From Terebella lapidaria (Eukaryota > Annelida > Polychaeta > Terebellida > Terebellidae), in NCBI GenBank assembly GCA_949152475.1, contig OX424562.1, forward strand, positions 3,596,001 through 3,660,000: DNA of 64,000 bases. Direction: 5' to 3'. Each line of letters begins with the position of its first letter. Position 1 is the stretch's first letter. The notes beneath the pieces were generated by a model, which ran no database searches, was not told where the DNA came from, and saw only the letters and a program-made list of their open reading frames with translations. The translations under genes and the position numbers were made by a program. Below, piece after piece: positions 21,156 through 64,000 of the stretch.

Positions 21156-21386
21156 CGAGCCATCCGTCATGTCCGTCCTAAATTCGCCGCATCCCAAAAT
21201 TCGCCAACTCAATATTATTATCAGAGCTCAGAAACTTGTTTTATGGAAAACAAACTGCTGGTACAAAGATTGAATATTAGAATCTCGATTGATGATAGAA
21301 TTGGTTGGTTTCATTTGCATTACAACGTCTGAAAACGCTGTTGGCGAATTTGGGAATGCGGCGAATTTAGGACAGATCATGGCTCG
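21156..21386. mobile_element. 231-bp MITE sharing ends with the 47.5-kb giant element
   Basis: TIRs of about 50 bp start CGAGCCAT and contain CCTAAATTCGCCGCAT and AAATTCGCCAAC. TA flanks at 21154-21155 and 21387-21388. The same terminal sequence opens the satellite element at 47546, so this is a minimal member of that family. Confidence 0.8.
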
Positions 21387-24300: not shown

Positions 24301-26662
24301 CTCCGTTTCGCTCTACGACGCACCCTTTCCGAGATACGGTCGAACAGGAAGTGCCGAGTCGGCGAAAATAAATTCGACACCAAGTGTCGTCTCGACCCAT
24401 AATACCCACTAGACTAGTTTGTCTAGTGCCAGAAGTCCGGAATTGAGCTCCGTTTCGCTCTACGACGCACCGTTTCCGAGATACGGTCGAACAGGAAGTG
24501 CCGAGTCGGCGAAAATAAATTCGACATCAGGGGTCGTCTCGACCCATAATACCCACTAGACTAGTTTGTCTAGTGCCAGAAGTCCGGAATTGAGCTCCGT
24601 TTCGCTCTACGACGCACCGTTTCCGAGATACGGTCGAACAGGAAGTGCCGAGTCGGCGAAAATAAATTCGACACCAGGGGTCGTCTCGACCCGAAATACC
24701 CCCTAGACTAGTTGTCTAGTGCCAGGAGGCCGAAATTGAGCTCCGTTTCGCTCTACGACGCACCGTTTCCGAGATACGGTCGAACAGGAAGTTATGAGTC
24801 GGCGAACATAAATTCGACACCAGGGGGTCGTCTCGACCCATAATACCCACTAGACTAGTTTGTCTAGTGCCAGAAGTCCGGAATTGAGCTCCGTTTCGCT
24901 CTACGACGCACCGTTTCCGAGATACGGCCAAACAGGAAGTTCCGAGTCGGCGAAAAAAAAATTGACACCAGGTGTCGTCTCGACCCAAAATACCCACTAG
25001 ACTAGTTTGTCTAGTGCCAGAAGGCCGGAATTGAGCTCCGTTTCGCTCTACGACGCACCGTCTCTGAGATACGGTCGAACAGGAAGTGCCGAGTCGGCGA
25101 AAATTAATTCGACACCAGGGGTCGTCTCGACCCATAATACCCACTAGACTAGTTTGTCTAGTGCCAGAAGTCCGGAATTGAGCTCCGTTTCGCTCTACGA
25201 CGAACCGTTTCCGAGATACGGTCGAACAGGAAGTGCCGAGTGGGCGAAAAAATAAATTCGACACCAGGGGTCGTCTCGACCCAAAATACCCCCTAGACTA
25301 GTTGTCTAGGGCCAGGAGGCCGAAATTGAGCTCCGTTTCGCTCTACGACGCACCGTTTCCGAGATACGGTCGAACAGGAAGTGCCGAGTCGGCGAAAATA
25401 TAAATTCGACACCAGGGGTCGTCTCGACCCAAAATACCCCCTAGACTAGTTGTCTAGTGCCAGGAGGCCGAAATTGAGCTCCGTTTCGCTCTACGACGCA
25501 CCGTTTCCGAGATACGGCCAAACAGGAAGTGCCGAGTCGGCGAAAATAAATTCGACACCAGGGGTCGTCTCGACCCAAAATACCCACTGGACTAGTTTGT
25601 CTAGTGCCAGAAGGCCGGAATTGAGCTCCGTTTCGCTCTACGACGCACCCTTTCCGAGATACGGCCCAACAGGAAGTGCCGAGTCGGCGAAAATAAATTC
25701 GACACCAGGGGTCGTCTCGACCCAAAATACCCCCTAGACTTGTTTGTCTAGTACCAGAAGGCCGGAATTGAGCTCCGTTTCGCTCTACGACGCACCGTTT
25801 CCGAGATACGGCCAAACAGGAAGTTCCGAGTCGGCGAAAAAAAAATTGACACCAGGTGTCGTCTCGACCCAAAATACCCACTAGACTAGTTTGTCTAGTG
25901 CCAGGAGGCCGAAATTGAGCTCCGTTCCGCTCTACGACGCACCGTTTCCGAGATACGGCCGAACAGGAAGTGCCGACTCGGCAAAAAAAAATTTGACACC
26001 AGGGGTCGTTTCGACCCAAGATACCCCCTAGACTAGTTTGTCTAGTGCCAGTAGGCCGAAATTGAGCTCCGTTTTGCTCTACGACGCACCGTTTCCGAGA
26101 TATGCATGAAAGCCTCAAGGATGAATCAGCAAAAATTCTTCCGAGCTCTAGGTCAGAGGTCGTTCGACGGATTGATCCCAAAATCAATAGGGTTCTTCCC
26201 TGGTGGTATATGAACTCCCATGCATAGAATACTTGCCATTGCATGAATACTTTTTGAGTTATCGATCGGAAACCAAGTCTCAAAATAAACCTTGATTTCA
26301 TCCTCACGGACCTCACGGACCCCGGAGCCGCCTCCAAAACAATAGGGGTCTTCCATGTAATATTTCTGACCAGTGGTGTAAATTTGGACAAGATCCATTC
26401 AGGCGTTCCCGAGTTATTGATCGGAAACCAAAACGGCGGAAAGTAAAAAAAAAAAGAAGAAAAAAAAAAAAAAAAAAAAAAAAACCAGACAAAACCATAA
26501 GGGCATTTCGGGCCGAAATGCCCTAATTACCACTATAAAAATTCTCTCAAAAATTATGCAAAACAGCTGGTCACATGAGGAATGATCTCACATTACACCT
26601 CGATCGAGGTGACACCCCTCAATCGAGGTGAAGCACCTGAAACAGGGACTAGCCTCTACCTG
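21391..26662. mobile_element. 5.3-kb TIR element carrying a 147-bp tandem array
   Basis: TIRs of about 70 bp begin CAGGTAGAGGCTAGTCCC and include the palindrome CACCTCGATCGAGGTG; they occupy 21391-21461 and 26592-26662. Identical 5-bp flanks GTAAA lie at 21386-21390 and 26663-26667. A third subterminal copy of the palindrome is at 21848-21882. Interior: unique AT-rich 21500-22370, the tandem array 22373-26105, then 26106-26440 unique sequence and an A-rich run 26443-26484. No transposase recognised. A 5-bp duplication is reported for Transib among others, but the end sequence does not identify a superfamily. Confidence 0.8.
22373..26105. repeat. 147-bp tandem array, about 25 units
   Basis: Consensus runs through GAGCTCCGTTTCGCTCTACG, CACCGTTTCCGAGATACGG, AACAGGAAGTGCCGAGTCGG and CGTCTCGACCC. 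Unit starts near 22681, 22826, 22973, 23120 give a 145-147-bp period. Each unit carries a small hairpin, ACTAGAC-TAGTTT-GTCTAGT. Where units are exactly 147 bp (49 codons), the minus strand stays open for up to 389 codons (22653-23822, also 25441-26391), giving repeats such as CVVERNGAQFRPSGTRQTS. One-base unit-length changes break these frames, and nothing suggests expression. Confidence 0.95.
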
Positions 26663-36289: not shown

Positions 36290-37576
36290 TGGGGCCAGTG
36301 GCCCTTGTTTCAAAATGGCGGCCATTTTCGACGAAAAACGGCCAATTTCTGACTTTGGTGGCCATTTTCTCAAAAACTGTGTTTCAAAAAATTGCCCTTA
36401 TATACATACCTCTGTGACGTGTATAAGTTTCGTTGCCCCGGAATCGCCGGTCTGCGTCTGGCGGCCATTTTCATTTCCTCGACGGGTCCGAAATGGGACT
36501 TTCTCATGTTAAATTCTCCTGTGCTTTATAATGGGACACATTATGCCTAATATCTCACTTAATATTGAGATTAGAGATTAGGAATCAATTCTGGACACAT
36601 AGAAAATGATTCAAATTTTCAATTTGACACCTCATTTTCAAGGTCAGAGCACAAAATGGCTTATACCTCGCTTATTATCAACTTTACAGCTTAGGATTCA
36701 ATTGTGGACTTATAGGAAATGATATATGCCGAATATTCTGATGACCTTGAATTGACCTTTGACCTCATTTTCAAGGTCACAGGACAAAATGCCTAATATC
36801 TCGCTTGTAATCGACTTTACAGCTTAGGAATCAATTATGAACATGCAGATTATTGTCATGACCTTGAATTTCACCTTTGACCTCATTTTCAAGGTCAGGG
36901 ATAAAATGGCTAATATCACTTATTATCGATTTTACAGCTTTGGAATCAATTGTGGACATAGAGTGAGTAATATAATGCTGAATATATCCTCGTGACCTTG
37001 AATTTTACCTCTGACCCCATCTTCAAGGTCAAGAGCACAAAATGGCCAATATCTCGCTTTTGTCGACTTTACAGATTAGGAATCAATTGTGAACATATAG
37101 GAAATGTTATATTCTGAATATTGTCATGACCTTGAATTTGACCTTTGACCTAATTTTCAAGGTCACAGGACAAAATGGCTAATATCTCACGTATTATCGA
37201 TGTTACAGCTTAGGAATAAATTTTGGACATATAGGGAATGATATGTGCTGAATATTCCCGTGACCTTGAATTTGACCTCGGACCTCATTTTCAAGATCAG
37301 AGCACAAAATGGCTTATACCTCGCTTATTATCAACTTTACAGCTTAGGATTCAATTGTGGAAATATAGGAAATGATATATGCTGAATATTCTGATGACCT
37401 TGAATTGACCTTTGACCTAAGTTTCAAGGTCACAGGACAAAATGGCTAATATCTCACTTGTTATCGACTTTACAGCTTAGGAATCAATTAAGAACATATA
37501 GGTAATGATATATGCAGATTATTGCCTTTGACCTCATTTTCAAGGTCACCGGACAAAATGGCTAATATCTCACTTA

Positions 37577-38459
37577 CCGTATTGACGCGCATAGAGGCGC
37601 ATGCGCCTATAAGTGAGCATGCGCCTATATCTGGATAGAGGCGCATGCGCCAGTATGTGAAGCAGTTGACATTTTCGCCACCCAAAACCATTATCCAGTT
37701 AAAGGTGCATGCGCTTATATATGAGGTAGTCTAAACCATACAATGTGAGTTTTGTTCACTTTCTTGGAAGAAAATTGAAGCACACGCCGAATGGAACTCG
37801 AATTTGTCTGTTGCTATACTGCATAGTGCCGTAGAGGTGGGGGGTACATATCTATCCTAGAAGGCCCCCAGTACACACGTTTCACGTTATGAAAAAGCGC
37901 TGTATGCCTATACATGTAGGTGTGCGTAAAAAGGGTGGTGAAACAATTGTACTACATCAACAGAAGTAGGCCTACAACACCATCACCACCTCAACACAAG
38001 CCAGAAACCCGCCACAAATCCAGTCACATGTTCATTCAGTATACTGCAGGGTCGACCTCTCCCTCCACCTTAATGACTCCCAACACAACATGATGGGGCC
38101 CACGCAAAACCATCCACCTCATCCATCTCCGTAAAAACACCTTGTCCTCCATTGTTTTGAAGGGCAATACACGTGGTGATCTCGTGATACCTTTCAACTA
38201 AGGGTTTTCGTGAGATATGTACATCCGTGTCAGGAAATTTATTAACTAATAATATTTATATGCAAACACAGGATCAATTAATGAAACTTGAATGCGCCTG
38301 TACGTGAATATTGGGATATGCCTCTATGTGAATATTGGGGTGCGCCTATATCCGGATATAGGCGCATGCGCCTCTGTGTGAATAAAAATATTTTTCAAAA
38401 CCTCTCAAAATGCGAAAATCCGCTTATAGGCGCATGCGCCTCTATGCGCATCAAAACGG
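37577..38459. mobile_element. 883-bp TA-flanked MITE with GCGCATGCGC palindromes
   Basis: TIRs CCGTATTGACGCGCATAG and CCGTTTTGATGCGCATAG (right end complemented) continue into AGGCGCATGCGCCTATAAG. TA flanks at 37575-37576 and 38460-38461. Removing it restores the satellite sequence CTCACTTATTATCG. Further copies of the GCGCATGCGC motif lie just inside each end (37615-37650, 38340-38370). No transposase. Confidence 0.9.
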
Positions 38460-39317
38460 TATTATCGATTTTACAGCTTTGGAATCAATTGTGGACATAG
38501 AGTGAATAATATAATGCTGAATATATTCTCGTGACCTCGATTTTTACCTCTGACCTCATTTTCAAGGTAAAGAGCACAAAATGGCTAATATCTCGCTTAT
38601 TGTCGACTTTACAGATTAGGAATCAATTGTGAACATATAGGAAATGTTATATTCTGAATATTGTCATGACCTTGAATTCGACCTTTGACCTCATTTTCAA
38701 AGTCAAAGGACAAAATGGCTAATATCTTGCTCATCTATTGACTTTATGGCTTGGGAACCAATTGTGGACATATAGAAAATGATATACACTGATTATTTTG
38801 AGGACCTAGAATTTGACCTTGAACTTATTTTCAAGGTCAGAGCACAAAATGCCTAATATCTCGCTTATCGTCGACTTTACAGCTTAGGATTCGATAGTGA
38901 ACATATAAGGAATGATATATGCTGAATATTTTGGTGACCTAGATTTTGACCTATAACCTCATTTTCCAAGTGAGAGAACAAAATGGTTAATATCTCGTTT
39001 GTTATCGACTTACAGCTTAGGAATCAAGTGCAAACAGGAAATGATATATGCTAAATATTCTCATGACCTTGAACTTGATTTTTTACCTCATTTTCAAGGT
39101 CACATCACGAATGGCTAATATCTCACTTATTTTCAGCTTTACAGCTTAGGAATCAATTGTGGTCAAACTACAAATGATAAATGCTGAATATTCTCGTGAC
39201 CTCGACTTGACCAATGACATCGGTCCATAAGAATACGGAAACGGACCAGATTTGCAGAAACGGAGCGGATAATGTATAAATTCTCCTATGCTTTATAATG
39301 GGACACATTATGCCTAA

Positions 39318-40353
39318 ATTCAACCCAGGTTCAAGATGGAGTCGGCGCTTTCCGTTCAGAAAGCTCTGTCCAAGGGGAAGTGGGCAGTCAGTATCGACGT
39401 CAAGGACGCGTACTTACATGTGCCCATACACCCAGCCGATCGGCGATACCTCAAGTTCGCCTTCGAGGGTTCGGTGTATCAGTTCAGGGTACTTCCTTTT
39501 GGAGTAGCCACCGCCCCTTACGTGTTCACCCGTATCGTAAGGACGATGGCAGCCAGGTTTCGATCGGTTGGAATTCAGTTCCACCATTATATCGACGATT
39601 GGTTAATCATAGCCGACTCCCCGGTTGGCGACCAGCCTTGGCTGGATCCCCAATTGGGCGAAGTCTCATCTGTCCTCGACACAGAGGTTCGAGTATGTCG
39701 GGGTAGATTACGATCTAGATCGAGGAGTAGCTCTTCCTCCGCGGAAGAGAGTTCTCAAGGCGATTGCGGCGATGGAGGTCGCGCTGACGCAGTCGTCGAT
39801 CACAGCTCGACAGTTTCTGTCCATCATCGGTCTGTTGGCGTCGATGGAGAAACAGGTGCCGTTCGGCAGGTGCTTCCTCAGACCCATTCAATGGTGTCTA
39901 GCATTGCAATGGCGGATCCTCACCGATCGACTAGACCAAGTCGTATCGGTGGACGATCGTGCTCGGGAAGCAATGCATTGGTGGCGGGACCATCGGAATC
40001 TTTTCCGAGGGATGCCACTGGCGGAGTATCTGCCCGATCGGACCTTCTTCACCGATGCGTCAGAATTGGCTTGGGGAGCTCATATGGACGAGCACGAACT
40101 CTCTGCTGTGTGGAACACGAGCGAGAGGGCGTTGCACACCAAAATCCAAAGCTGCCAAGCAAAAATGGCGGTGGACAGAAAAGTGAAGCTTCTGCGCAGC
40201 TGCGCGCGCATATGCGCGGCGGTTTTGGGGCAAAAGGAGCGCTCGAGTCATGCAGGCAGACGATCGTGCCTTGCTTTCAGTACGCGAATTTCTATCCAGA
40301 ACGATCCAAAGGATCGAAAAGGAGCATGTAGTAGTTTAGATTGGTGATGTATA
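39318..40353 (+). pseudogene. DIRS/Ngaro-type retrotransposon pol fragment (RT and RNase H)
   Basis: From about 39336 one frame holds the RT core: motif A DVKDAYLHVPIHP, then FRVLPFGVATAPYVFT, then motif C HYIDDWLI. YIDDWL and the spacing resemble DIRS and Ngaro retroelements. Near 39625 the frame changes: LGWIPNWAKSHL and FEYVGVDYDL, then the RNase H start FFTDASELAWGAHMD near 40040, lie in another frame, with several residues lost at the junction. The amino end of pol, methyltransferase and tyrosine recombinase are absent. At 40150-40275 coding sequence gives way to a segment that reappears inverted at 53060-53200. The fragment sits within the 134-bp satellite; the leader of that satellite is present on both sides (39275-39317 and 40354-40397). 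Confidence 0.85.
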
Positions 40354-41495
40354 AAATAAACTCTCCTATGCTTTATAATGGGACACATTATGCCTAATAT
40401 CTCACTTAATATTGAGATTAGAGACTAGGAATCAATTGTGGACATATAGGAAATGATATATGCTGAATATCCTCGTGACCTTGAATTTGACCTCTGACCT
40501 CAATTCAAGGTCAGAGCTTAAAATGGCTGATATCTCGCTTATTATCGACTCTACCGCTTAGGAATCAATTGTGGACATATAGGAAATGATATATGCTGAA
40601 TATTTTGATGACCTTGAATTTGACCTTTGACCCCATTTTCAAGGTCATAGGACAAAATGGCTAATATCTCGCTTGTTATCGACTTTACAGCTTAGGAATC
40701 AGTTATGATAATATAGGAAATGATATATGCAGATTATTGTCATGACTTGAATTTGACCTTTGACCTCATTTTCAAGGTCACAGGACAAAATGGCTAATAT
40801 CTCACTTATTATCGACTCTACAGCTTAGGAATCAATTGTGGACATATAGGAAATGATATATGCTGAATATTCTGATGACCTTGAATTTGACATTCGACCG
40901 CATTTTCAAGGTCATAGGACAAAATGGCTAATATCTCGCTTGTTATCGACTTTACAGCTTAGGAATCAGTTATGAACATATAGGAAATGATATATGCAGA
41001 TTATTGTCATGACCTTGAATTTGACCTGTGACCTCATTTTCAAGGTCACAGGACAAAATGTCTAATATCTCACTTATTATCGATTTTACAGCTTAGGAAT
41101 CAATTGTGGACATGTAGGAAATGATATATGCTGAATATTCTCGTGACCTTGAATTTGACCTCTGACCTCATTTTCAAGGTCCAAGGACAAACTGACTCAT
41201 ATCTTGCTCCTCTATTGACTGTATGGCTTGGGAATCAATTGTGGACATGATATAGAAAATGATATACACTGAATATTTTGATGACCTTGAATTTGACCTT
41301 TGCCCCTTCATTTTCAAGGCCACAGCACAAAATTGCTAATATCTCGCTGATTATTGAATTTACAGCTTAGCAATCAACTGTGGACATGATATATGCTTAA
41401 TGTAATATATGCTGAATATTCTCTTGACCTTGAATTTAACCAGTGACCTGGCTAACATCTAAAATATTAAACATTGTCCGGTAACCTATCTTCGG

Positions 41496-47545: not shown

Positions 47546-47710
47546 CGAGCCTTCTGTCCGAAATTCGCCGCATTCCCAAATTCGCCAACAGCATTTTTAG
47601 GCTCTTTTATGTCCTTCATAACACCCATTGAAATCGTTATTCGATAGTCCGGTATCAGGACTATTTACCATTATTTTTTCACAAAGACAGCTTCTATGTG
47701 TTGCTAATAT

Positions 47711-48084
47711 ACAGTTGGCACCGGCGTGAAGTTAGCTACTTGTTACTAGTTCCTTATTCAAATCGAATAAGTAACCAGGAGCTGGCTACTTATTCAGTCT
47801 GGCTACTTATTCAGACATAATTTCATGATGAATCAAGACTTGAGTGGCTCTGCTGAATGTATCACCATTCGACCTTGCAAAATATTTTTGGTATATCTAG
47901 ATCTGCTTATCATTACGCGAAATATACTTTTTTGCTTTATTGTAGGTGTGGTACCAACCCCCCCCCCCCTCCCTCACCCCACCCCCTGCTATGCCCCACG
48001 GAGGGTTGTGTGGCTGGTGATGCCTGTTAGCTTTACTGTATCAGCACCCAATGCTGGTTCAAAGCTGGCCATTTGTCCATTTTA
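47711..48084. repeat. left unique arm of the giant element
   Basis: Reverse complement of 63621-63985 with a few differences, including the C-run length at 47961-47970 against the G-run at 63730-63742. Contains short tandem TACTTATTC-type repeats at 47740-47820. The MMNQDLSGSAEC frame appears on both copies only because they are inverted duplicates. Confidence 0.9.
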
Positions 48085-51000
48085 ACATAACTTTTTTGAT
48101 ATTCTAATTCTTGAGCCACCTCAAATCCTATACTAGTTCGAAGATACATATTAAATATATGAATCAGCATTAGTCCAAGACTGGCTCAAAATTCTATTCT
48201 CGAGGTATGACCCATTGAAATAAAAACTTAAGGAAGTTCGTTTTTTTTTTTCGAATTCGACCAACTTTACGTATTTTCTGACAAAATCCTAATCCTTGAG
48301 CCACCCTAACTAATATATTACTTTGAAGAAACATATTAGAAGTATCAATCAGCATTAGTTCAAGACTGGCTCAAGATTTCGTTTCCGAGATATGACGCCT
48401 TGAAATAAAAACTTAGCAAAATTCACTTTTTGGATATTTTGACCAACTTTACATATTTTCTGACAAAATTCTAATCCTTGAGCCACCCTAACTAATATAT
48501 TTCTTTGAAGCAACATATTAGAAGTATCAATCAGCATTAGTTCAAGACTGGCTCAAGATTTCGTTTCCGAGATATGACGCATTGAAATAAAAACTTAGCA
48601 AAATTCACTTTTTGGGGATTTTGACCAACTTTACATATTTTCTGACAAAATCCTAATCCTTGAGCCACCCTAACTAATATATTTCTTTGAAGCAACATAT
48701 TAGGAGTATCAATCAGCATTAGTACAAGACTGGCTCAAGATTTCGTTTCCGAGATATGACGCATTGAAATAAAAACTTAGCAAAATTCACTTTTTGGGTA
48801 TTTTGACCAAATTTACATATTTTCTGACAAAATCCTAATTCTTGAGCCACCCTAACTAATGTACTACCTTAAACCAACATATTAGAAGTATCAATCAGCA
48901 TTAGTTCAAGACTGGCTCAAGATTTCATTTCCGAGATATGACGCATTGAAACAAAAACTTAGCAAAATTCACTTTTTGGGGATTTTGACCAACTTTACAT
49001 ATTTTCTGACAAAATCCTGATCCTTGAGCCACCCTAACTAATGTTCAACCTTAAACCAACATATTAGAAGTATCAATCAGCATTAGTTCAAGACTGGCTC
49101 AAGATTTCGTTTCCGAGATATGACGCATTGAATTAAAAACTTAGCAAAATTCACTTTTTGGATAGTTTGACCAACTTTACATATTTTCTGACAAAATCCT
49201 AATCCTTGAGCCACCCTAACTAATATATTTCTTTGAAGCAACATATTAGAAGTATCAATCAGCATTAGTTCAAGACTGGCTCAAGATTTCGTTTCCGAGA
49301 TATGACGCATTGAAATAAAAACTTGGCAAAATTCACTTTTTGGGGATTTTGACCAACTTTACATATTTTCTGACAAAATCCTAATCCTTGAGCCACCCTA
49401 ACTAATGTACTACCTTAAACCAACATATCAGAAGTATCAATCAGCATTAGTTCAAGACTGGCTCAAGATTTCGTTTCCGAGATATGACGCATTGAAATAA
49501 AAACTTAGCAAAATTCACTTTTTGGGTACGGTATTTTGACCAACTTTACATATTTTCTGACAAAATCCTAATCCTTGAGCCACCCTAACTAATGTACTAC
49601 CTTAAACCAACATATTAGAAGTATCAATCAGCATTAGTTCAAGACTGGCTCAAGATTTCATTTCCGAGATATGACGCATTGAAATAAAAACTTAGCAAAA
49701 TTAACTTTTTGGGGATTTTGACCAACTTTACATATTTTCTGACAAAATCCTAATCCTTGAGCCACCCTAACTAATATATTTCTTTGAAGCAACATATTAG
49801 AAGTATCAATCAGCATTAGTTCAAGACTGGCTCAAGATTTCGTTTCCGAGATATGACGCATTGAAATAAAAACTTAGCAAAATTCACTTTTTGGGTATTT
49901 TGACCAACTTCACATATTTTCTGACAAAATCCTAATCCTTGAGCCACCCTAACTAATATATTTCTTTGAAGCAACATATTAGAAGTATCAATCAGCATTA
50001 GTTCAAGACTGGCTCAAGATTTCATTTCCGAGATATGACACATTGGAATAAAAACTTAGCAAAATTCACTTTTTGGGGATTTTGACCAACTTTACATATT
50101 TTCTGACAAAATCCTAATCCTTGAGCCACCCTAACTAATATATTTCTTTGAAGCAACATATTAGAAGTATCAATCAGCATTAGTTCAAGACTGGCTCAAG
50201 ATTTCGTTTCCGAGATATGACGCATTGAAATAAAAACTTAGCAAAATTCACTTTTTGGGTATTTTGACCAACTTTACATATTTTCCGACAAATTCCTAAT
50301 CCTTGAGCCACCCTAACTAATATACTTCTTTGAAGCAACATATTAGAAGTATCAATCAGCATTAGTTCAAGACTGGCTCAAGTTTTTATTTCCGAGATAT
50401 GACCCTACGAAATAAAAACTTAGCAAAATTAACTTTTTGGGGATTTTGACCAACTTTACATATTTTCTGACAAAATCCTAATCCTTGAGCCACCCTAACT
50501 AATATATTTCTTTGAGGCAACATATTAGAAGTATCAATCAGCATTAGTACAAGACTGGCTCAAGATTTCGTTTCCGAGATATGACGCATTGAAATAGAAA
50601 CTTAGCAAAATTCACTTTTTGGGTATTTTGACCAAATTTACATATTTTCTGACAAAATCCTAATCCTTGAGCCACCCTAACTAATATATTTCTTTGAAGC
50701 AACATATTAGAAGTATCAATCAGCATCAGTTCAAGACTGGCTCAAGATTTCATTTCAGAGATATGACGCATTGAAATAAAAACTTAGCAGAATTCACTTT
50801 TTGGGGATTTTGACCAACTTTACATATTTTCTGACAAAATCCTAATCCTCGAGCCACCCTAACTAATGTACTACCTTAAACCAACATATCAGAAGTATCA
50901 ATCAGTATTAGTTCAATACTGGCTCAAGATTTCATTTCCGAGATATGACACATTGGAATAAAAACTTAGCAAAATTCACTTTTTGGGGATTTTGACAAAC

Positions 51001-53030
51001 TTTACATATTTTCTGACAAAATCCTAATCCTTGAGCCACCTTAACTAATGTACTACCTTGAAGCGATATAGTAGAAGTATCAATTAGCCCTTGTCCCAGG
51101 CTGGCTCAAGATTCTATTTTCAAACTATGAAGTACTGAAATAAGCATTTTTCATGAAATAGATTTTTCGTGTATTTGTCCATTTTAACGTAACTTTTCAA
51201 ATATTCTAATCCTTGAGCCACCTCAAATCCTATAGTATTTCGAAGATACATATCAGATGTATCAATCAGTATTAGTGCAAGACTGGCTCAAGATTCTATT
51301 CTAGAGATATGACCCATTGAAAGAAAAGCTTAGGGAAATTCGTTTTTTTTTTTTTTTTTTGAATTCAACCAACTTAACGTATTTTCTGATAAGATCCTAA
51401 TCCTTGAGCCACCCTAACTATGAAGCAACATGTTAGAGGTATCAATTAGCCCTGGTCTCAGACTGGCTCAGGATTCTTTTCTCCAACTACGGTGTACTGA
51501 ATTAAGTATTCTTCATAAAATTGATTTTTCATATATTTTTCCATTTTAACGTAACTTTTCAAATATTCTAATCCTTGAGCCACCTCAAATCCTATAATAT
51601 TTCGAAGATACATATTAGATGTATCAATCAGCATTAGTGCAAGACTGGATCAAGATTTCATCCTCGAGATCTGACCCATTGAAATAAAACTTTGGGAAAA
51701 TCACTTTTTGGGGGTTTTGACCAACTATACATATTTTTTGACAAAATCCTAATCCCTGAGCCACCCTAACTAATGTACTACCTTGAAGCAACAGAGTAGA
51801 AGTATCAATTAGCCTTTGTCCCAGGCTGGCTCAGGATTTTATTTTCAAACTATGATGTACTGAAATAAGCATTCTTCATGAAATAGATTTTTCGTGTATT
51901 TGTCCATTTTAACGTAACTTTTCAAATACTGTAAAAGTACTAATTTTCGCGCGGTACTTATTTCGCGTATTTCGCGGTAAGGGTAGATCCGCGAAATTAA
52001 ATACCTCGCTAAAATAAGTCTCCCGCGAAAATTAATTTTGAGGTTTGTGGCCGTCGATAGCACAATACGCTATTGCTAATCATAACGCGCAGAATTACGT
52101 TAGTTACAGTGCCCAGATACAGGTCGCTAGTGTCTGCATGGCACGTGCTTGAACTTGGTGCCGATGACATCTGCACCAAGTTCAAGCTTTTGCAGACTAA
52201 GCATGACTTGTTTGACGTTTGTGTTTAAAATTTCAAATAAAATCTGATTTGATTTCCTGTGACTTTCCATTTCTCACACCAATTGCATTGATATACTGTG
52301 ATGTCCATCAACTGCAAATTCTTTACACGATTACTGGCAATCACTGAACCGCGAAATTAAATCCCCGCGAAATTGCCTGGGGGTAAAAACCGCGAAATTT
52401 AATACCCGCGAAAAAAAGTGTTTTTACAGTATTCTAATCCTTGAGCCACCTCAAGTGCTATGATATTTCGAAGATACATAATTTAGATGTATCTATCAGC
52501 ATTAGTGCAAGACTGGCTCAAGATTCTACTCTCGAGATATGACCCATTGAAATAAAAACTTAGGGAAATTCTTTTTTTTTTTAAATCGACCAATTTTACA
52601 TATTTTCTGACCAAATCCTAATCCTTGAGCCACCCTATTCAATATACTACCTTTAAACAACTGTTACATATCAGAAGTATCAATTAGTCTTTATCCCAGG
52701 CCGGCACAGGATTCTATTCTCCAACTATGATGTACTGAAATAAGCATTCTTCATGATGTAGATTTTTCGTATATTTGTCCATTTCTACATAACTTTTTAA
52801 ATACTTTAATCCTTGAGGCACCTAAAATCCTATACTATTTCAAAGATACATATTAGATGTATCAATCAGCATTAGTGCAAGACTGGCTCAAGATTCTATT
52901 CTCGAGATATGACCCATTGAAATAAAAACTTAGGGAAATTCATTTTTTTGTTGAATTCAACCAACTTTACGTATTTTCTGACACAATCCTAATCCTTGAG
53001 CCACCCTAACTAATATACCACCTTGAAGCA
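48085..53030 (-). repeat. 182-bp satellite, left block, about 24 units
   Basis: Units read, on the minus strand, GGCTCAAGGATTAGGATTTT, GTCAGAAAATATGTAAAGTT, TGGTCAAAATCCCCAAAAAG and CATATCTCGGAAACGAAAT. Two variants alternate: one with GTTGCTTCAAAGAAATATATT and one with GTTGGTTTAAGGTAGTACAT-type sequence. Units between 51060 and 53030, and the outermost unit at 48085-48240, are clearly more diverged than the rest. Confidence 0.95.
51929..52429. mobile_element. 501-bp TA-flanked MITE inside the satellite
   Basis: TIRs CTGTAAAAGTACTAATTTTC and CTGTAAAAACACTTTTTTTC (right end complemented) followed by CGCG-rich sequence. TA flanks at 51927-51928 and 52430-52431; excision restores the satellite sequence CAAATATTCTAATCC. 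Several AAATTTCGCGG motifs repeat near both ends. No transposase. Confidence 0.85.
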
Positions 53031-55025
53031 AGAAATTCACGTGATTGAAACTAGACATGAACGTCTGCCTTATGACCTCTCTCCTTCCCACCAAAACTGC
53101 TTCGCACCTGTGCGCGCGAATGCGCAGCAACTTCACTTTTCTGTCCACCGCCATTTTTGCTTGGTAGCTTGGATTGTTTCTCCCAGTGTATTCGTGGAAT
53201 TTTGTCTGCAAACTAGTCATTTGCGATATATTCTGACGGAATTTCATCAGGGTTTCAATAGGCATTGTTTCTATTATAGATTTGTGTCTATTGTGAATAA
53301 GTATTGGGACGATCTTTTGTTACTGCACTTCCGTCAGTGGTCAGCCTGTCATCGGATATTGTACCTGTTGTTTACGTTCACATTTATCTGTCGTCTTTAC
53401 TTGGATTTATTTTATAGTTGGTACCTTGTTCTACTAGTTTACTCAGCCATATCCATTTCCCTGTGAGGGTTTTCTTTCAGCGCAGTACAGGTTTTTAAGT
53501 GCCCACCACTTGTTCCCTGTTACTGTCAGTTGTTTGTTTACCCTTTGTGATTGTGTAACCATGTCGTCTCAGTCTACTCTGGGCACCGGCTATGATTCAA
53601 GAAAGTGTTTCCAGTGCGGGATTAACACCCTTCGCCAAGGGGAGAAGCATGGTTTATGCTTTGATTGCTTGGATCATGGTCCGGTGTCCATGGGAGACCT
53701 GAGGTGCGACCTGAGTCGTTCGTGGTTCCCGTCAGACTTTGTTCGGGCAACGGAAGGCTATCCCCAGAGCTCGCAGGCTCAAAAAGATGCCTTGAGGCTG
53801 GCAGGCTCCGCTGGAGCGATGCCTGACCGTTCGTCGCTCATTGAGTCGGACCCTGCCCCATCACATAGGCCGTGTCGCGTGTCAACCCACCCCTGGGGTT
53901 GACGCAGGATATGGTTAACGTGGCTGTGCAGAGTTTCTTTGCACAGTCACTAGGTTCCCATCAGGGTCCCTTGATTCCGGGACTCTGCTCTGCTGGGACA
54001 GGGAGTTCTGGCTGGTTCTTCGACCGCTGCTTTGCCAGGGGAGCTTGCTCCACCTGTTGGCAAGAAGGTGAAGACTTCTCCTTCCAAGAAGAAGTCTTCT
54101 CGTCTTGCCAAGGCAAAGGCAGTCGAGAGTACGCCCTCCCCTCACCCTCGGTGGGTCAGGGGGAGACGTCCGTCCCCGTTCTCCTTGCCTCTGGCAAGTC
54201 AGGTAAGAGGAAGCGTCCTTCCTCGAAAGCTTTGGAGGTCGATCGCTCGTCACTTTTTGATGCCGATCAAGGCTTCTCCGTCGGAATCTCGTTGGCTGAT
54301 GGCTTTGCTTCGGGCATAGACCATGGAGCTTTGCTCGATGTGTCATTTGGTTCCTCAGTTTCGAGGCCCGAAGGGGCAGGGAACCCGGGCTCAAGATCAT
54401 TCCTTCGATCATGAGTCACAGCTCTCTGATTGTACTCTCGATCGTACACGATCGAGGGTCGACCGGGTGGGTTTTGTTGGGGTCATTCCCCAGCAGGACC
54501 CAAGTCCTGCATTCTCTGGTGTAAGTCGTTTGACGGGCGCTACCAGGAACCAGGAGGCCTCTCATCCCTCTCAGGCAGACTATGATATCCTCGGTCGGTC
54601 GATCTCCTCGTCTATGAGACCCTCGGTTGGATCTTACCAGAAACCCACTCTCTTATGGGTTTCTGATCTTACAGATGTAACGATCTTTGGTGGGGGCTGG
54701 TGGCGATGATCGGGACCATTCCTCATCGGAGAACGAGGTTAAAAATGGGGGGGGGGGGGATGCGAAGGTTCTATGTTGATGGCAAGGCATATGCCAATAT
54801 TGCCTATCGAGGCCTCAGAGTCTTCTAAGTTGACCGGATGGTTTGCGTCGGCGCCAGTTCGTCGACTGGTTTGGCTTCCTGTGGCTATCGCGTTGAACAA
54901 GGATATGACCAAGATCAATTCAGGGGTTACGGCGAGGAAGGACATGGCTTGCTCGAAGGTTGTGTTCCATACTCGCCAGGTTCAGCTGGAGTCTATTGAC
55001 ATGTACAGAGCGTTACAGACGTGGC
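53031..55025 (+). pseudogene. DIRS/Ngaro-type retroelement 5' part with gag-like ORF, degenerate
   Basis: The segment 53060-53200 matches the inverse of 40150-40275 (shared ACTTTTCTGTCCACCGCCAT), as expected of a terminal repeat that is inverted between the two ends. A gag-like frame starts at 53561 (MSSQSTLGTGYDSRKCFQC). It has the pattern CFQCGINTLRQGEKHGLCFDCL, a CxxC...HxxCxxC finger-like unit typical of this group's ORF1, and runs to a stop near 53900. Continuations lie in other frames: a Lys/Ser-rich stretch near 54060 (KKVKTSPSKKKSSRLAKAK) and a frame at 54773-55034. At least two frameshifts separate them. The insertion is bounded by satellite on both sides and no pol is attached. Confidence 0.75.
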
Positions 55026-58000
55026 TCGAGGATTAGGATTTTGTCAGAAACTATGTCAAGTTGGTCAAAATCCCCAAAAAATAAATTTCGATAAGTTTTT
55101 ATTTCAATGGATCATATCTCGGAAATGAAATCTTTAGCCAGTCTGGAACTAATGCTGATTGATACTTCTAATATGTTGCTTCAAGGTAATATATTAGTTA
55201 GGGTGGCTCAAGGATTAGGATTTTGTCAGAAAATATGTAAAGTTGGTCAAAATACCCAAAAAGTGAATTTTGCTAAGTTTTTATTTCAATGCGTCATATC
55301 TCGGAAACGAAATCTTGAGCCAGTCTCGAACTAATGCTGATTGATACTTCCAATATGTTGCTTCAAAGGAATATATTAGTTAGGGTGGCTCAAGGATTAG
55401 GATTTTGTCAGAAAATATGTAAAGTTGGTCAAAATCCCCAAAAAGTGAATTTTGCTAAGTTTTTATTTCAATGCGTCATATCTCGGAAACGAAATCTTGA
55501 GCCAGTCTTGAACTAATGCTGATTGATACTTCTAATATGTTGCTTCAAAGAAATATATTAGTTAGGGTGGCTCAAGGATTAGGATTTTGTCAGAAAATAT
55601 GTAAAGTTGGTCAAAATACCCAAAAAGTGAATTTTGCTAAGTTTTTATTTCAGTGCGTCATATCTCGGAAACGAAATCTTGAGCCAGTCTCGAACTAATG
55701 CTGATTGATACTTCTGATATGTTGGTTTAAGGTAGTACATTAGTTAGGGTGGCTCAAGGATCAGGATTTTGTCAGAAAATATGTAAAGTTGGTCAAAATA
55801 CCCAAAAAGTGAATTTTGCTAAGTTTTTATTTCAATGCGTCATATCTCGGAAACGAAATCTTGAGCCAGTCTTGAACTAATGCTGATTGATACTTCTAAT
55901 ATGTTGCTTCAACGAAATATATTAGTTAGGGTGGCTCAAGGATTAGGATTTTGTCAGAAAATATGTAAAGTTGGTCAAAATCCCCAAAAAGTGAATTTTG
56001 CTAAGTTTTTATTTCAATGCGTCATATCTCGGAAACAAAATCTTGAGCCAGTCTTGAACTAATGCTGATTGATACTTCTAATATGTTGGTTTAAGGTAGT
56101 ACATTAGTTATTGTGTCTCAAGGATTAGGATTTTGTCAGAAAATATGTAAAGTTGGTCAAAATCCCCAAAAAGTGAATTTTGCTAAGTTTTTATTCCAAT
56201 GTGTCATATCTCGGAAATGAAATCTTGAGCCAGTATTGAACTAATGCTGATTGATACTTCTAATATGTTGCTTCAAAGAAATATATTAGTTAGGGTGGCT
56301 CAAGGATTAGGATTTTGTCAGAAAATATGTAAAGTTGGTCAAAATACCCAAAAAGTGAATTTTGCTAAGTTTTTATTTCAATGCGTCATATCTCGGAAAC
56401 AAAATCTTGAGCCAGTCTTGAACTAATGCTGATTGATACTTCTAATATGTTGGTTTAAGGTAGTACATTAGTTATTGTTTCTCAAGGATTAGGATTTTGT
56501 CAGAAAATATGTAAAGTTGGTCAAAATCCCCAAAAAGTGAATTTTGCTAAGTTTTTATTCCAATGTGTCATATCTCGGAAATGAAATCTTGAGCCAGTAT
56601 TGAACTAATGCTGACTGATACTTCTAATATGTTGCTTCAAAGAAATATATTAGTTAGGGTGGCTCAAGGATTAGGATTTTGTCAGAAAATATGTAAAGTT
56701 GGTCAAAATCCCCAAAAAGTGAATTTTGCTAAGTTTTTATTTCAATGCGTCATATCTCGGAAACAAAATTTTGAGCCAGTCTTGAACTAATGCTGATTGA
56801 TACTTCTAATATGTTGGTTTAAGGTAGTACATTAGTTATTGTTTCTCAAGGATTAGGATTTTGTCAGAAAATATGTAAAGTTGGTCAAAATCCCCAAAAA
56901 GTGAATTTTGCTAAGTTTTTATTCCAATGTGTCATATCTCGGAAATGAAATCTTGAGCCAGTATTGAACTAATGCTGATTGATACTTCTAATATGTTGCT
57001 TCAAAGAAATATATTAGTTAGGGTGGCTCAAGGATTAGGATTTTGTCAGAAAATATGTAAAGTTGGTCAAAATCCCCAAAAAGTGAACTTTGCTAAATTT
57101 TTATTTCAATGCGTCATATCTCGGAAACGAAATCTTGAGCCAGTCTTGAACTAATGCTGATTGATACTTCTAATATGTTGCTTCAAAGAAATATATTAGT
57201 TAGGGTGGCTCAAGGATTAGGATTTTGTCAGAAAATATGTAAAGTTGGTCAAAATACCCAAAAAGTGAATTTTGCTAAGTTTTTATTTCAATGCATCATA
57301 TCTCGGAAAAGAAATCTTGAGCCAGTCTCGAACTAATGCTGATTGATACTTCTGATATGTTGGTTTAAGGTAGTACATTAGTTAGGGTGGCTCAAGGATT
57401 AGGATTTTGTCAGAAAATATGTAAAGTTGGTCAAAATCCCCAAAAAGTGAATTTTGCTAATTTTTTATTTCAATGCGTCATATCTCGGAAACGAAATCTT
57501 GAGCCAGTCTTGAACTAATGCTGATTGATACTTCTAATATGTTGCTTCAAAGAAATATATTAGTTAGGGTGGCTCAAGGATTAGGATTTTGTCAGAAAAT
57601 ATGTAAAATTGGTCAAACTATCCAAAAAGTGAATTTTGCTAAGTTTTTATTCCAATGCGTAATATCTCGGAAATGAAATCTTGAGCCAGTCTTGAACTAA
57701 TGCTGATTGATACTTCTAATATGTTGCTTCAAAGAAATATATTAGTTAGGGTGGCTCAAGGATTAGGATTTTGTCAGAAAATATGTAAAGTTGGTCAAAA
57801 TCCCCAAAAAGTGAATTTTGCTAAGTTTTTATTCCAATGCGTCATATCTCGGAAATGAAATCTTGAGCCAGTCTTGAACTAATGCTGATTGATACTTCTA
57901 ATATGTTGCTTCAAAGAAATATATTAGTTAGGGTGGCTCAAGGATTAGGATTTTGTCAGAAAATATGTAAAGTTGGTCAAAATACCCAAAAAGTGAATTT

Positions 58001-61000
58001 TGCTAAGTTTTTATTTCAATGCGTCATATCTCGGAAACGAAATCTTGAGCCAGTCTTGAACTAATGCTGATTGATACTTCTAATATGTTGCTTCAAAGAA
58101 ATATATTAGTTAGGGTGGCTCAAGGATTAGGATTTTGTCAGAAAATATGTAAAGTTGGTCAAAATCCCCAAAAAGTGAATTTTGCTAAGTTTTTATTTCA
58201 ATGCGTCATATCTCGGAAACAAAATCTTGAGCCAGTCTTGAACTAATGCTGATTGATACTTCTGATATGTTGGTTTAAGGTAGTACATTAGTTAGGGTGG
58301 CTCAAGGATTAGGATTTTGTCAGAAAATATGTAAAGTTGGTCAAAATCCCCAAAAAGTGAATTTTGCCAAGTTTTTATTTCAATGCCTCATATCTCGGAA
58401 ACGAAATCTTGAGCCACTCTTGAACTAATGCTGATTGATACTTCTAATATGTTGCTTCAAAGAAATATATTAGTTAGGGTGGCTCAAGGATTAGGATTTT
58501 GTCAGAAAATATGTAAAGTTGGTCAAACTATCCAAAAAGTGAATTTTGCTAAGTTTTTAATTCAATGCGTCATATCTCGGAAACGAAATCTTGAGCCAGT
58601 CTTGAACTAATGCTGATTGATACTTCTAATATGTTGGTTTAAGGTAGAACATTAGTTAGGGTGGCTCAAGGATCAGGATTTTGTCAGAAAATATGTAAAG
58701 TTGGTCAAAATCCCCAAAAAGTGAATTTTGCTAAGTTTTTGTTTCAATGCGTCATATCTCGGAAATGAAATCTTGAGCCAGTCTTGAACTAATGCTGATT
58801 GATACTTCTAATATGTTGGTTTAAGGTAGTACATTAGTTAGGGTGGCTCAAGAATTAGGATTTTGTCAGAAAATATGTAAATTTGGTCAAAATACCCAAA
58901 AAGTGAATTTTGCTAAGTTTTTATTTCAATGCGTCATATCTCGGAAACGAAATCTTGAGCCAGTCTTGTACTAATGCTGATTGATACTCCTAATATGTTG
59001 CTTCAAAGAAATATATTAGTTAGGGTGGCTCAAGGATTAGGATTTTGTCAGAAAATATGTAAAGTTGGTCAAAATCCCCAAAAAGTGAATTTTGCTAAGT
59101 TTTTATTTCAATGCGTCATATCTCGGAAACGAAATCTTGAGCCAGTCTTGAACTAATGCTGATTGATACTTCTAATATGTTGCTTCAAAGAAATATATTA
59201 GTTAGGGTGGCTCAAGGATTAGAATTTTGTCAGAAAATATGTAAAGTTGGTCAAAATATCCAAAAAGTGAATTTTGCTAAGTTTTTATTCCAATGTGTCA
59301 TATCTCGGAAATGAAATCTTGAGCCAGTCTTGAACTAATGCTGATTGATACTTCTAATATGTTGCTTCAAAGAAATATATTAGTTAGGGTGGCTCAAGGA
59401 TTAGAATTTTGTCAGAAAATATGTAAAGTTGGTCAAAATCCCCAAAAAGTGAATTTTGCTAAGTTTTTATTTCAATGCGTCATATCTCGGAAACAAAATT
59501 TTGAGCCAGTCTTGAACTAATGCTGATTGATACTTCTAATATGTTGGTTTAAGGTAGTACATTAGTTATTGTTTCTCAAGGATTAGGATTTTGTCAGAAA
59601 ATATGTAAAGTTGGTCAAAATCCCCAAAAAGTGAATTTTGCTAAGTTTTTATTCCAATGTGTCATATCTCGGAAATGAAATCTTGAGCCAGTATTGAACT
59701 AATGCTGATTGATACTTCTAATATGTTGCTTCAAAGAAATATATTAGTTAGGGTGGCTCAAGGATTAGGATTTTGTCAGAAAATATGTAAAGTTGGTCAA
59801 AATCCCCAAAAAGTGAACTTTGCTAAATTTTTATTTCAATGCGTCATATCTCGGAAACGAAATCTTGAGCCAGTCTTGAACTAATGCTGATTGATACTTC
59901 TAATATGTTGCTTCAAAGAAATATATTAGTTAGGGTGGCTCAAGGATTAGGATTTTGTCAGAAAATATGTAAAGTTGGTCAAAATACCCAAAAAGTGAAT
60001 TTTGCTAAGTTTTTATTTCAATGCATCATATCTCGGAAAAGAAATCTTGAGCCAGTCTCGAACTAATGCTGATTGATACTTCTGATATGTTGGTTTAAGG
60101 TAGTACATTAGTTAGGGTGGCTCAAGGATTAGGATTTTGTCAGAAAATATGTAAAGTTGGTCAAAATCCCCAAAAAGTGAATTTTGCTAATTTTTTATTT
60201 CAATGCGTCATATCTCGGAAACGAAATCTTGAGCCAGTCTTGAACTAATGCTGATTGATACTTCTAATATGTTGCTTCAAAGAAATATATTAGTTAGGGT
60301 GGCTCAAGGATTAGGATTTTGTCAGAAAATATGTAAAATTGGTCAAACTATCCAAAAAGTGAATTTTGCTAAGTTTTTATTCCAATGCGTAATATCTCGG
60401 AAATGAAATCTTGAGCCAGTCTTGAACTAATGCTGATTGATACTTCTAATATGTTGCTTCAAAGAAATATATTAGTTAGGGTGGCTCAAGGATTAGGATT
60501 TTGTCAGAAAATATGTAAAGTTGGTCAAAATCCCCAAAAAGTGAATTTTGCTAAGTTTTTATTCCAATGCGTCATATCTCGGAAATGAAATCTTGAGCCA
60601 GTCTTGAACTAATGCTGATTGATACTTCTAATATGTTGCTTCAAAGAAATATATTAGTTAGGGTGGCTCAAGGATTAGGATTTTGTCAGAAAATATGTAA
60701 AGTTGGTCAAAATACCCAAAAAGTGAATTTTGCTAAGTTTTTATTTCAATGCGTCATATCTCGGAAACGAAATCTTGAGCCAGTCTTGAACTAATGCTGA
60801 TTGATACTTCTAATATGTTGCTTCAAAGAAATATATTAGTTAGGGTGGCTCAAGGATTAGGATTTTGTCAGAAAATATGTAAAGTTGGTCAAAATCCCCA
60901 AAAAGTGAATTTTGCTAAGTTTTTATTTCAATGCGTCATATCTCGGAAACAAAATCTTGAGCCAGTCTTGAACTAATGCTGATTGATACTTCTGATATGT

Positions 61001-63620
61001 TGGTTTAAGGTAGTACATTAGTTAGGGTGGCTCAAGGATTAGGATTTTGTCAGAAAATATGTAAAGTTGGTCAAAATCCCCAAAAAGTGAATTTTGCCAA
61101 GTTTTTATTTCAATGCCTCATATCTCGGAAACGAAATCTTGAGCCACTCTTGAACTAATGCTGATTGATACTTCTAATATGTTGCTTCAAAGAAATATAT
61201 TAGTTAGGGTGGCTCAAGGATTAGGATTTTGTCAGAAAATATGTAAAGTTGGTCAAACTATCCAAAAAGTGAATTTTGCTAAGTTTTTAATTCAATGCGT
61301 CATATCTCGGAAACGAAATCTTGAGCCAGTCTTGAACTAATGCTGATTGATACTTCTAATATGTTGGTTTAAGGTAGAACATTAGTTAGGGTGGCTCAAG
61401 GATCAGGATTTTGTCAGAAAATATGTAAAGTTGGTCAAAATCCCCAAAAAGTGAATTTTGCTAAGTTTTTGTTTCAATGCGTCATATCTCGGAAATGAAA
61501 TCTTGAGCCAGTCTTGAACTAATGCTGATTGATACTTCTAATATGTTGGTTTAAGGTAGTACATTAGTTAGGGTGGCTCAAGAATTAGGATTTTGTCAGA
61601 AAATATGTAAATTTGGTCAAAATACCCAAAAAGTGAATTTTGCTAAGTTTTTATTTCAATGCGTCATATCTCGGAAACGAAATCTTGAGCCAGTCTTGTA
61701 CTAATGCTGATTGATACTCCTAATATGTTGCTTCAAAGAAATATATTAGTTAGGGTGGCTCAAGGATTAGGATTTTGTCAGAAAATATGTAAAGTTGGTC
61801 AAAATCCCCAAAAAGTGAATTTTGCTAAGTTTTTATTTCAATGCGTCATATCTCGGAAACGAAATCTTGAGCCAGTCTTGAACTAATGCTGATTGATACT
61901 TCTAATATGTTGCTTCAAAGAAATATATTAGTTAGGGTGGCTCAAGGATTAGAATTTTGTCAGAAAATATGTAAAGTTGGTCAAAATATCCAAAAAGTGA
62001 ATTTTGCTAAGTTTTTATTCCAATGTGTCATATCTCGGAAATGAAATCTTGAGCCAGTCTTGAACTAATGCTGATTGATACTTCTAATATGTTGCTTCAA
62101 AGAAATATATTAGTTAGGGTGGCTCAAGGATTAGGATTTTGTCAGAAAATATGTAAAGTTGGTCAAAATCCCCAAAAAGTGAATTTTGCTAAGTTTTTAT
62201 TTCAATGCGTCATATCTCGGAAACGAAATCTTGAGCCAGTCTTGAACTAATGCTGATTGATACTTCTGATATGTTGGTTTAAGGTAGTACATTAGTTAGG
62301 GTGGCTCAAGGATTAGGATTTTGTCAGAAAATATGTAAAGTTGGTCAAAATCCCCAAAAAGTGAATTTTGCCAAGTTTTTATTTCAATGCGTCATATCTC
62401 GGAAACGAAATCTTGAGCCAGTCTTGAACTAATGCTGATTGATACTTCTAATATGTTGCTTCAAAGAAATATATTAGTTAGGGTGGCTCAAGGATTAGGA
62501 TTTTGTCAGAAAATATGTAAAGTTGGTCAAACTATCCAAAAAGTGAATTTTGCTAAGTTTTTAATTCAATGCGTCATATCTCGGAAACGAAATCTTGAGC
62601 CAGTCTTGAACTAATGCTGATTGATACTTCTAATATGTTGGTTTAAGGTTGAACATTAGTTAGGGTGGCTCAAGGATCAGGATTTTGTCAGAAAATATGT
62701 AAAGTTGGTCAAAATCCCCAAAAAGTGAATTTTGCTAAGTTTTTGTTTCAATGCGTCATATCTCGGAAATGAAATCTTGAGCCAGTCTTGAACTAATGCT
62801 GATTGATACTTCTAATATGTTGGTTTAAGGTAGTACATTAGTTAGGGTGGCTCAAGAATTAGGATTTTGTCAGAAAATATGTAAATTTGGTCAAAATACC
62901 CAAAAAGTGAATTTTGCTAAGTTTTTATTTCAATGCGTCATATCTCGGAAACGAAATCTTGAGCCAGTCTTGTACTAATGCTGATTGATACTCCTAATAT
63001 GTTGCTTCAAAGAAATATATTAGTTAGGGTGGCTCAAGGATTAGGATTTTGTCAGAAAATATGTAAAGTTGGTCAAAATCCCCAAAAAGTGAATTTTGCT
63101 AAGTTTTTATTTCAATGCGTCATATCTCGGAAACGAAATCTTGAGTCAGTCTTGAACTAATGCTGATTGATACTTCTAATATGTTGCTTCAAAGAAATAT
63201 ATTAGTTAGGGTGGCTCAAGGATTAGAATTTTGTCAGAAAATATGTAAAGTTGGTCAAAATATCCAAAAAGTGAATTTTGCTAAGTTTTTATTTCAAGGC
63301 GTCATATCTCGGAAACGAAATCTTGAGCCAGTCTTGAACTAATGCTGATTGATACTTCTAATATGTTTCTTCAAAGTAATATATTAGTTAGGGTGGCTCA
63401 AGGATTAGGATTTTGTCAGAAAATACGTAAAGTTGGTCGAATTCGAAAAAAAAAAACGAACTTCCTTAAGTTTTTATTTCAATGGGTCATACCTCGAGAA
63501 TAGAATTTTGAGCCAGTCTTGGACTAATGCTGATTCATATATTTAATATGTATCTTCGAACTAGTATAGGATTTGAGGTGGCTCAAGAATTAGAATATCA
63601 AAAAAGTTATGTTAAAATGG
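55026..63620 (+). repeat. 182-bp satellite, right block, about 47 units
   Basis: Same unit as the left block in the opposite orientation. Within it a 2,730-bp block of 15 units is repeated (about 56660-59390 and 59390-62120), and a 1,274-bp block of 7 units is repeated (about 60960-62234 and 62234-63340). Each canonical unit contains a 60-codon frame (MLIDTSNMLLQRNILVRVAQ and on) whose stop overlaps the next start as TAATG. The outermost unit (63440-63620) is the diverged edge type also seen at 48085-48240. Confidence 0.95.
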
Positions 63621-63985
63621 ACAAATGGCCAGCTTTGAACCAGCATTGGGTGCTGATACAGTAAAGCTAACAGGCATCACCAGCCACACAACCCTCCGTG
63701 GGGCATAGCAGGGGGTGGGGTGAGGGAGGGGGGGGGGGGGGGGTTGGTACCACACCTACAATAAAGCAAAAAAGTATATTTCGCGTAATGATAAGCAGAT
63801 CTAGATATACCAAAAATATTTTGCAAGGTCGAATGGTGATACATTCAGCAGAGCCACTCAAGTCTTGATTCATCATGAAATTATGTCTGAATAAGTAGCC
63901 AGACTGAATAAGTAGCCAGCTCCTGGTTACTTATTCGATTTGAATAAGGAACTAGTAACAAGTAGCTAACTTCACGCCGGTACAG
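63621..63985. repeat. right unique arm of the giant element
   Basis: Reverse complement of 47711-48084. Compared with the left side, about 130 bp between the terminal repeat and this arm are missing here (or inserted on the left, 47597-47710). Confidence 0.9.
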
Positions 63986-64000
63986 TTGGCGAACTTAGGG

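Follow-up and report, generated by a model that had tools for sequence, protein, structure and literature searches.

Giant foldback transposons with 182-bp satellite arms, probably of the Rehavkus type, in the annelid Terebella lapidaria

The window, by which we mean the whole analysed stretch of 64,000 nucleotides from the genome of Terebella lapidaria, contains towards its right end two opposed arrays of one 182-bp unit, placed by TRF at 48104-51839 in the plus orientation and, the longer one, at 55021-63593 in the opposite orientation. The arrays belong to a satellite element that occupies positions 47720-63981, starts with ACCGGCGTGAAG at 47720, has the termini ACCGGCG...CGCCGGT and is bordered on both sides by the 9-bp target duplication ACAGTTGGC. 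The features of the locus are as follows:

21156..21386, plus strand: uninterrupted 231-bp MITE with a like TIR and TA on both sides, outside the satellite element
47546..47719, plus strand: left part of the host MITE, preceded by TA and ending in the left ACAGTTGGC copy (47711-47719)
47720..48103, plus strand: left head, the unique part of the terminal inverted repeat, beginning ACCGGCGTGAAGTTAGC
48104..51868, plus strand: left arm with 21 matches to the 182-bp unit
51925..52433, unstranded: insert of 509 bp within the left arm, bounded by AATACTGTAAAA...TTTTACAGTATT and probably representing a small nested transposon
52434..53037, plus strand: inner remnant of the left arm with 4 diverged unit matches
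53038..55036, plus strand: loop, a cargo of approximately 2 kb with broken gag-like reading frames
55037..63593, minus strand: right arm with 47 matches to the 182-bp unit in the opposite orientation
63594..63981, minus strand: right head, the inverted copy, ending ...GCTAACTTCACGCCGGT
63982..63990, plus strand: right target duplication ACAGTTGGC, 9 bp
63982..64000, plus strand: right part of the host MITE, running past the window to ...GACTCG followed by TA

An earlier note on this DNA had pointed out the opposed arrays, the inverted arms and the MITE-type ends, with TA beside them, that are common to the block and to 21156-21386, and all of these are indeed present. Aligned to the reverse-complemented right arm, the left arm shows in its outer 1.8 kb or so a single mismatch and a C-run of different length; further in, identity is approximately 88-98% in stretches of 200 columns, falling to approximately 70-80% past 3.4 kb. 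The 182-bp unit carries a 9-bp inverted repeat (CTTGAGCCA/TGGCTCAAG) that may be due to chance, and no higher-order repeat was seen in the right array at lags of 1-14 units.

The same note took the MITE ends for the ends of the satellite element, and here it was mistaken. A search of the genome (761.6 Mb in 438 contigs) with positions 47546-48100 yielded, among the best 40 of 971 candidates, 38 matches elsewhere whose first query base is 161-179, close to or at the end of the element, and the start of the element was therefore set at 47720; none of the 38 reached the MITE end. The sequence at 47546-47719 is MITE sequence and lies outside the element. Other loci with MITE ends around 182-bp units, which the note had proposed to look for, are likewise missing from these 38 matches, where the inner ends are found instead. 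The right TIR and the TA that it forecast beyond position 64000 do exist just past the window, but they belong to the host MITE. Taking out the element together with one ACAGTTGGC copy gives a predicted empty site that is a 212-bp MITE with both TIRs and a TA on each side, and with an interior unlike that of the MITE at 21156. The window copy was inserted into a pre-existing MITE, and the two elements are nested, the satellite element being the guest.

The host is short, has TIRs and a TA duplication and exists in many copies, as a MITE does. With the 231-bp MITE as query, the main matches among the best 40 of 1429 candidates are 195-231 bp long and uninterrupted; this ranking favours uninterrupted copies, and the interrupted MITE of the window is absent among the 40 scored. 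Three equal-scoring MITE copies lie approximately 4.73 kb apart (C4:2199153, 2203884 and 2208618), a pattern that suggests tandem duplication. Other repeats of the window include a second satellite-like array at 22395-26102 (147-bp unit, 25 copies, 92% matches) and three arrays of a 133-134-bp unit at 36629-37523, 38460-39202 and 40390-41449, which surround a reverse-transcriptase ORF at 39318-40331 (RVT_1, E 3e-17); a 152-bp stretch within 36629-41449 is 78% like the start of the loop of the satellite element. Elsewhere in the assembly, a second COX1-like stretch with an in-frame TGA (C417:44633-46450) stands beside the mitochondrial-looking contig C438 of 15,973 bp and is either a nuclear copy or a second mitochondrial type. 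COX1, translated with genetic code table 5, has 7 AGA codons at positions where serine is expected, and its ATA and AAA codons make sense as Met and Lys, as in an invertebrate bilaterian.

The satellite element is one of a family. Its first 30 bases, searched genome-wide with up to 3 mismatches, were found in 53 places (25 forward and 28 reverse, 47 of them perfect), the reversed control giving 0 and 0. Paired by position and strand, these termini form 24 inverted pairs and 5 single ends, and the pairs span from 5,563 to 41,754 bp (median 15.3 kb, 374.4 kb in sum). Target duplications were sought at all 24 pairs: 15 are perfect over 9 bp, 4 are perfect over 10 bp and 2 match at 8 of 9 positions. 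In addition, the pair at C11:37032263, whose right end deviates in its final bases, has a perfect 9-bp repeat if, in our reading, that end is trimmed by 4 nt. No duplication was found at C1:35830377 and C2:18250467 (2 of the 24 pairs), and the repeat at C1:94515678, being within a run of TA, counts as weak evidence. Comparison lengths of 7, 8 and 11 fit worse, except for that TA run and for 8 of 11 at C1:1569964. The duplications differ in sequence from site to site. Defined termini and a target-site duplication, both expected of a foldback element, are thus present, and the mobility of the satellite block, proposed by the earlier note, is supported by 24 inverted end pairs of which 22 have a target-site duplication. 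A lone 99-bp piece of the head was also noticed at C1:35671757 (L036:358-456), with no 182-bp unit in the 20 kb around it.

Eleven elements, the window copy and ten others, were read whole, and the remaining thirteen were covered by their ends. All 11 have the same plan of head, 182-bp array, inverted array and inverted head, that is, the long inverted tandem-repeat arms round a loop that characterize foldback elements. The block adjoining a head holds from 7 to 57 unit matches in these 11. The middle is between 27 bp (C1:35830377) and 21 kb long, two of the elements (C1:35830377 and C1:38936414) having no unit-free stretch above 300 bp. Arm lengths and loops vary between copies, and several arms are interrupted by other inserts; past its first 200 bp or so, the left head of C1:35830377 has diverged or been shortened. 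The median difference between heads is 1.04% within elements vs 3.36% between them, and an element's own heads differ at 12 of 386 positions in C12:32319933 and at 106 of 376 in C1:35830377. The elements C1:1569964 and C1:80818619 have arm-specific variants in common. That the arms within an element are universally homogenised was considered and is unsupported by the head tree, which makes the left head the sister of the right in 6 of 16 elements.

The loops fall into recurrent types. One, of 354-364 bp, is found in three elements and is matched by the 21-kb loop at its left edge. The window copy and four others of those read whole have in common the 2-kb piece in which gag-like frames are broken. 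When this cargo was searched for in the genome (best 40 of 889 candidates), six elements carried it at 97-100% identity, the window cargo being 97-98% identical to that of the five others. Outside the elements, the best near-full-length match among the same 40 is 80% identical, matches longer than 500 bp are 74-86% identical and all matches 65-94%. Since six elements stand at 97-100% and the best near-full-length match elsewhere at 80%, the cargo was probably captured once and then multiplied with the element. Pfam gave no name to two peptides of the cargo, which we take to resemble a DIRS gag. The family, then, has defined termini, inserts with a duplication of 9-10 bp, occupies independent sites and shares loops between copies.

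The distribution of the 182-bp unit was followed with a 39-bp pattern of the unit, again genome-wide and with up to 3 mismatches, which gave 1200 matches and 0 in the control. The 11 elements read whole hold 511 of the 1200 matches (43%) and account for 164.9 kb (44%) of the 374.4 kb that the paired elements sum to, and 63 unit matches lie in the 20 kb beside the single end at C1:83586107. The 100 unit matches listed, which are exact and lie on C1 below 38.94 Mb, are all within five elements. These numbers fit confinement of the unit to the family, the basis beyond the 11 elements and the 100 listed places being the proportion.

The largest copy spans 41.8 kb (C1:11678250-11720003). Its duplication is a perfect one of 10 bp, its left 30-bp terminus has 3 mismatches, and its loop measures 21 kb. 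In this loop lies an ORF of 1535 amino acids:

C1:11698305-11702912, minus strand: 1535-aa ORF in the loop of the 41.8-kb copy

The ORF encodes first a region of acidic repeats, in which one expression finds a 21-22-residue motif 14 times, followed by a PHD finger (PF00628, residues 712-757, E 9e-8, 32.5 bits vs a cut-off of 24) and then by the motifs LDAT, PVAEF, SDFSW, CSAH and VENYF in this order. A D-D-E triad with CxxH is a MULE motif, and candidate residues for it, picked by eye, are D1042, D1117 and E1358 together with C1164xxH1167. The ORF is the only long match of its kind in the genome (all seven candidates scored). Decayed relatives of the ORF are found in three stretches at C11:17.775-17.784 Mb, in one of which remnants of the 182-bp unit (E 3e-25) lie approximately 120 bp from the transposase remnant; the other two have weak unit matches only (E 0.001 and E 0.06), and 12 control loci gave no unit match at E up to 0.1.

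Sequence comparison of the ORF with MULE proteins was less telling. The Pfam MULE model did not match it even at E up to 10, and the PHD finger is its sole Pfam domain. A phmmer comparison with ORFs from ten MULE loci of the genome, the longest at each locus and not all of them MULE proteins, gave a best E of 0.052, and hhalign against MULE gave E 0.061 with a probability of only 0.9 out of 100. Of 2000 shuffles, 16 equalled or exceeded the score of the ORF with a first small MULE profile (1234 reported), and 497 did so with a second (1125 reported). Two matches to sequences of solved structures (E 0.7-0.8) were put down to chance, and of 12 pattern stretches in viral contigs none is a relative of the ORF. 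Matches to the MULE transposase model PF10551 occur at 39 places of the genome, several with open frames; by position none of them is inside the 24 pairs, and the one nearest the window is at C8:3669872, approximately 10 kb beyond the window's element.

The same 21-kb loop contains an LTR retroelement with LTRs of 1647 bp that are 99.8% identical and a gag ORF (PF03732, E 2.5e-8); a target duplication of this nested element was sought and not found. Its LTR covers the last 49 or so codons of the 1535-aa ORF, and the gene may therefore be interrupted at its end, so that even the 41.8-kb copy may be without a working enzyme.

Taken together, the elements probably represent a giant family of Rehavkus-type foldback transposons with a candidate PHD-finger transposase, the class of which rests on context and not on sequence comparison. 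If placed with the known Rehavkus kind, the family stands out by its very long satellite arms, and it includes a candidate source of the transposase. The earlier note had tied satellite DNA to a TIR element, and that link holds, with a different element, the Rehavkus-like foldback transposon, in the place of the MITE. Each copy consists of a head of approximately 380 bp, an arm of 182-bp units and a variable loop, followed by the same arm and head inverted. Because insertion makes the 9-bp, sometimes 10-bp, duplication, movement would be by cut-and-paste with a staggered cut. The transposase would most likely be the PHD-finger, Mutator-related, Rehavkus-type protein of the loop of the 41.8-kb copy, or alternatively a like protein from a copy outside the assembly, and it would act in trans on the copies lacking the ORF. 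Array length may change via unequal exchange, with some exchange between arms. Transposition would spread the arrays, and the 182-bp satellite would therefore disperse inside the element.

The alternative that survives best is that the foldback element is moved by another transposase, the PHD-finger ORF having been captured as a gene or belonging to an unrelated nested element. The loops do carry cargo, as the gag-like piece of six copies and the LTR retroelement in the ORF's own loop demonstrate, and the comparison of the ORF with MULE gave no clear match. However, duplications of 9-10 bp suit Mutator-type transposases, as has been argued for Tetris in the available part of its description (PMC4079207), Rehavkus elements combine the same features, and on C11 a separate decayed relative of the ORF adjoins decayed 182-bp units, which argues that the association of the ORF with the satellite is older than the 41.8-kb locus. 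We regard this alternative as unlikely. An ordinary, immobile satellite array inverted by rearrangement or by assembly error is very improbable: palindromic tandem arrays are hard to assemble and two pairs are without a duplication, but 24 pairs have near-identical termini, the 22 duplications vary in sequence by site, the copies differ in arm lengths and loops, and the two arms of an element fail to mirror each other in their inner parts. Just as improbable is the suggestion of the earlier note that the MITE is the mobile unit, having captured and amplified a repeat and moving via its TA-flanked TIRs; these do enclose the block at the window locus, but the 9-bp duplication sits inside the MITE, the predicted empty site is a whole MITE, the scored arm ends elsewhere stop short of the MITE end, and as a general explanation it is refuted by the inner ends at 23 further pairs.

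The Rehavkus-type reading can be extended further, albeit tentatively. In that extension, which we consider possible but doubtful, the whole satellite family would live only as the arms of one transposon, and the unit would be a putative platform for transposase binding or arm pairing, lengthened by selection on transposition; the element would then be an engine that makes and seeds satellite DNA, and a single PHD-finger master copy would drive giant copies, some two dozen in number and up to 42 kb long.

Foldback elements with repetitive arms have been described before. The FB/NOF foldbacks of Drosophila have long tandem-repeat inverted arms round a loop and make 9-bp duplications, their repeats and arms being shorter than the ones described here. 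To our knowledge, the Helentron-carried Cg170 satellites of oysters make no target duplication. They too are satellite-like units dispersed by a mobile element, but in the accessible portion of the source that element has a Helentron structure with subterminal inverted repeats (PMC7492417). The Tm1 Mutator/Foldback elements of root-knot nematodes are similar in having composite TIRs of variable length, mostly 9-bp duplications and copies with and without a transposase, as far as the available text describes them; they differ in that the copies are approximately 0.9 kb and 2.6 kb long and the FLYWCH-MULE transposase is recognised by Pfam (PMC3169594). The word PHD is absent from that text (PMC3169594). 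A search of the literature, mostly of titles and the openings of abstracts and as such weak evidence of absence, returned no report in which a giant family of this kind is recognised.

The closest parallel found for satellite-like foldback arms is Tetris of Drosophila virilis, whose TIR, in the part of the description at hand, comprises an outer domain, a variable number of tandem repeats of approximately 220 bp and an inner domain, with duplications of 8-10 bp (PMC4079207). The same portion mentions three structurally complete copies and no transposase found, whereas here there are 24 pairs and a candidate transposase (PMC4079207). Tetris repeats are also described there as occurring without the outer TIR domain, whereas no escaped arrays of the present unit are seen among the matches listed (PMC4079207).

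The Rehavkus DNA transposons of Repbase, in the summary available, have a 9-bp duplication, a TIR of 26-400 bp, a PHD finger and a minisatellite, and occur in arthropods and annelids (PMC6446971). In Rehavkus-1_TC of Tribolium castaneum the satellite TCsat23 (164 bp) forms mostly arrays of 5 and 8 monomers in the inverted termini, according to the available text (PMC10218199). Compared by described features, in so far as these sources give them, the present family shares with Rehavkus the 9-bp duplication (perfect over 9 bp in 15 and over 10 bp in 4 of 24 pairs), the PHD finger and the terminal tandem repeat. It differs from what is described there in its blocks of up to 57 units, in elements of up to 41.8 kb vs 9.5 kb, in its unit of 182 bp and in loops with retroelement cargo; as to the TIR of 26-400 bp, the unique head here is approximately 380 bp long but the inversion continues through arms of kilobases (PMC6446971). 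Satellite DNA is often thought to arise inside transposons, and the literature cases, as far as their available descriptions go, each miss a part, Tetris being without a known transposase and Rehavkus-1_TC having short arrays. The present family is a countable system: its blocks have 7-57 units, its loops are of two main types, and it has a single candidate transposase as well as a decayed copy of greater age. It would allow one to study at what point arrays grow longer and if they ever escape from the element.
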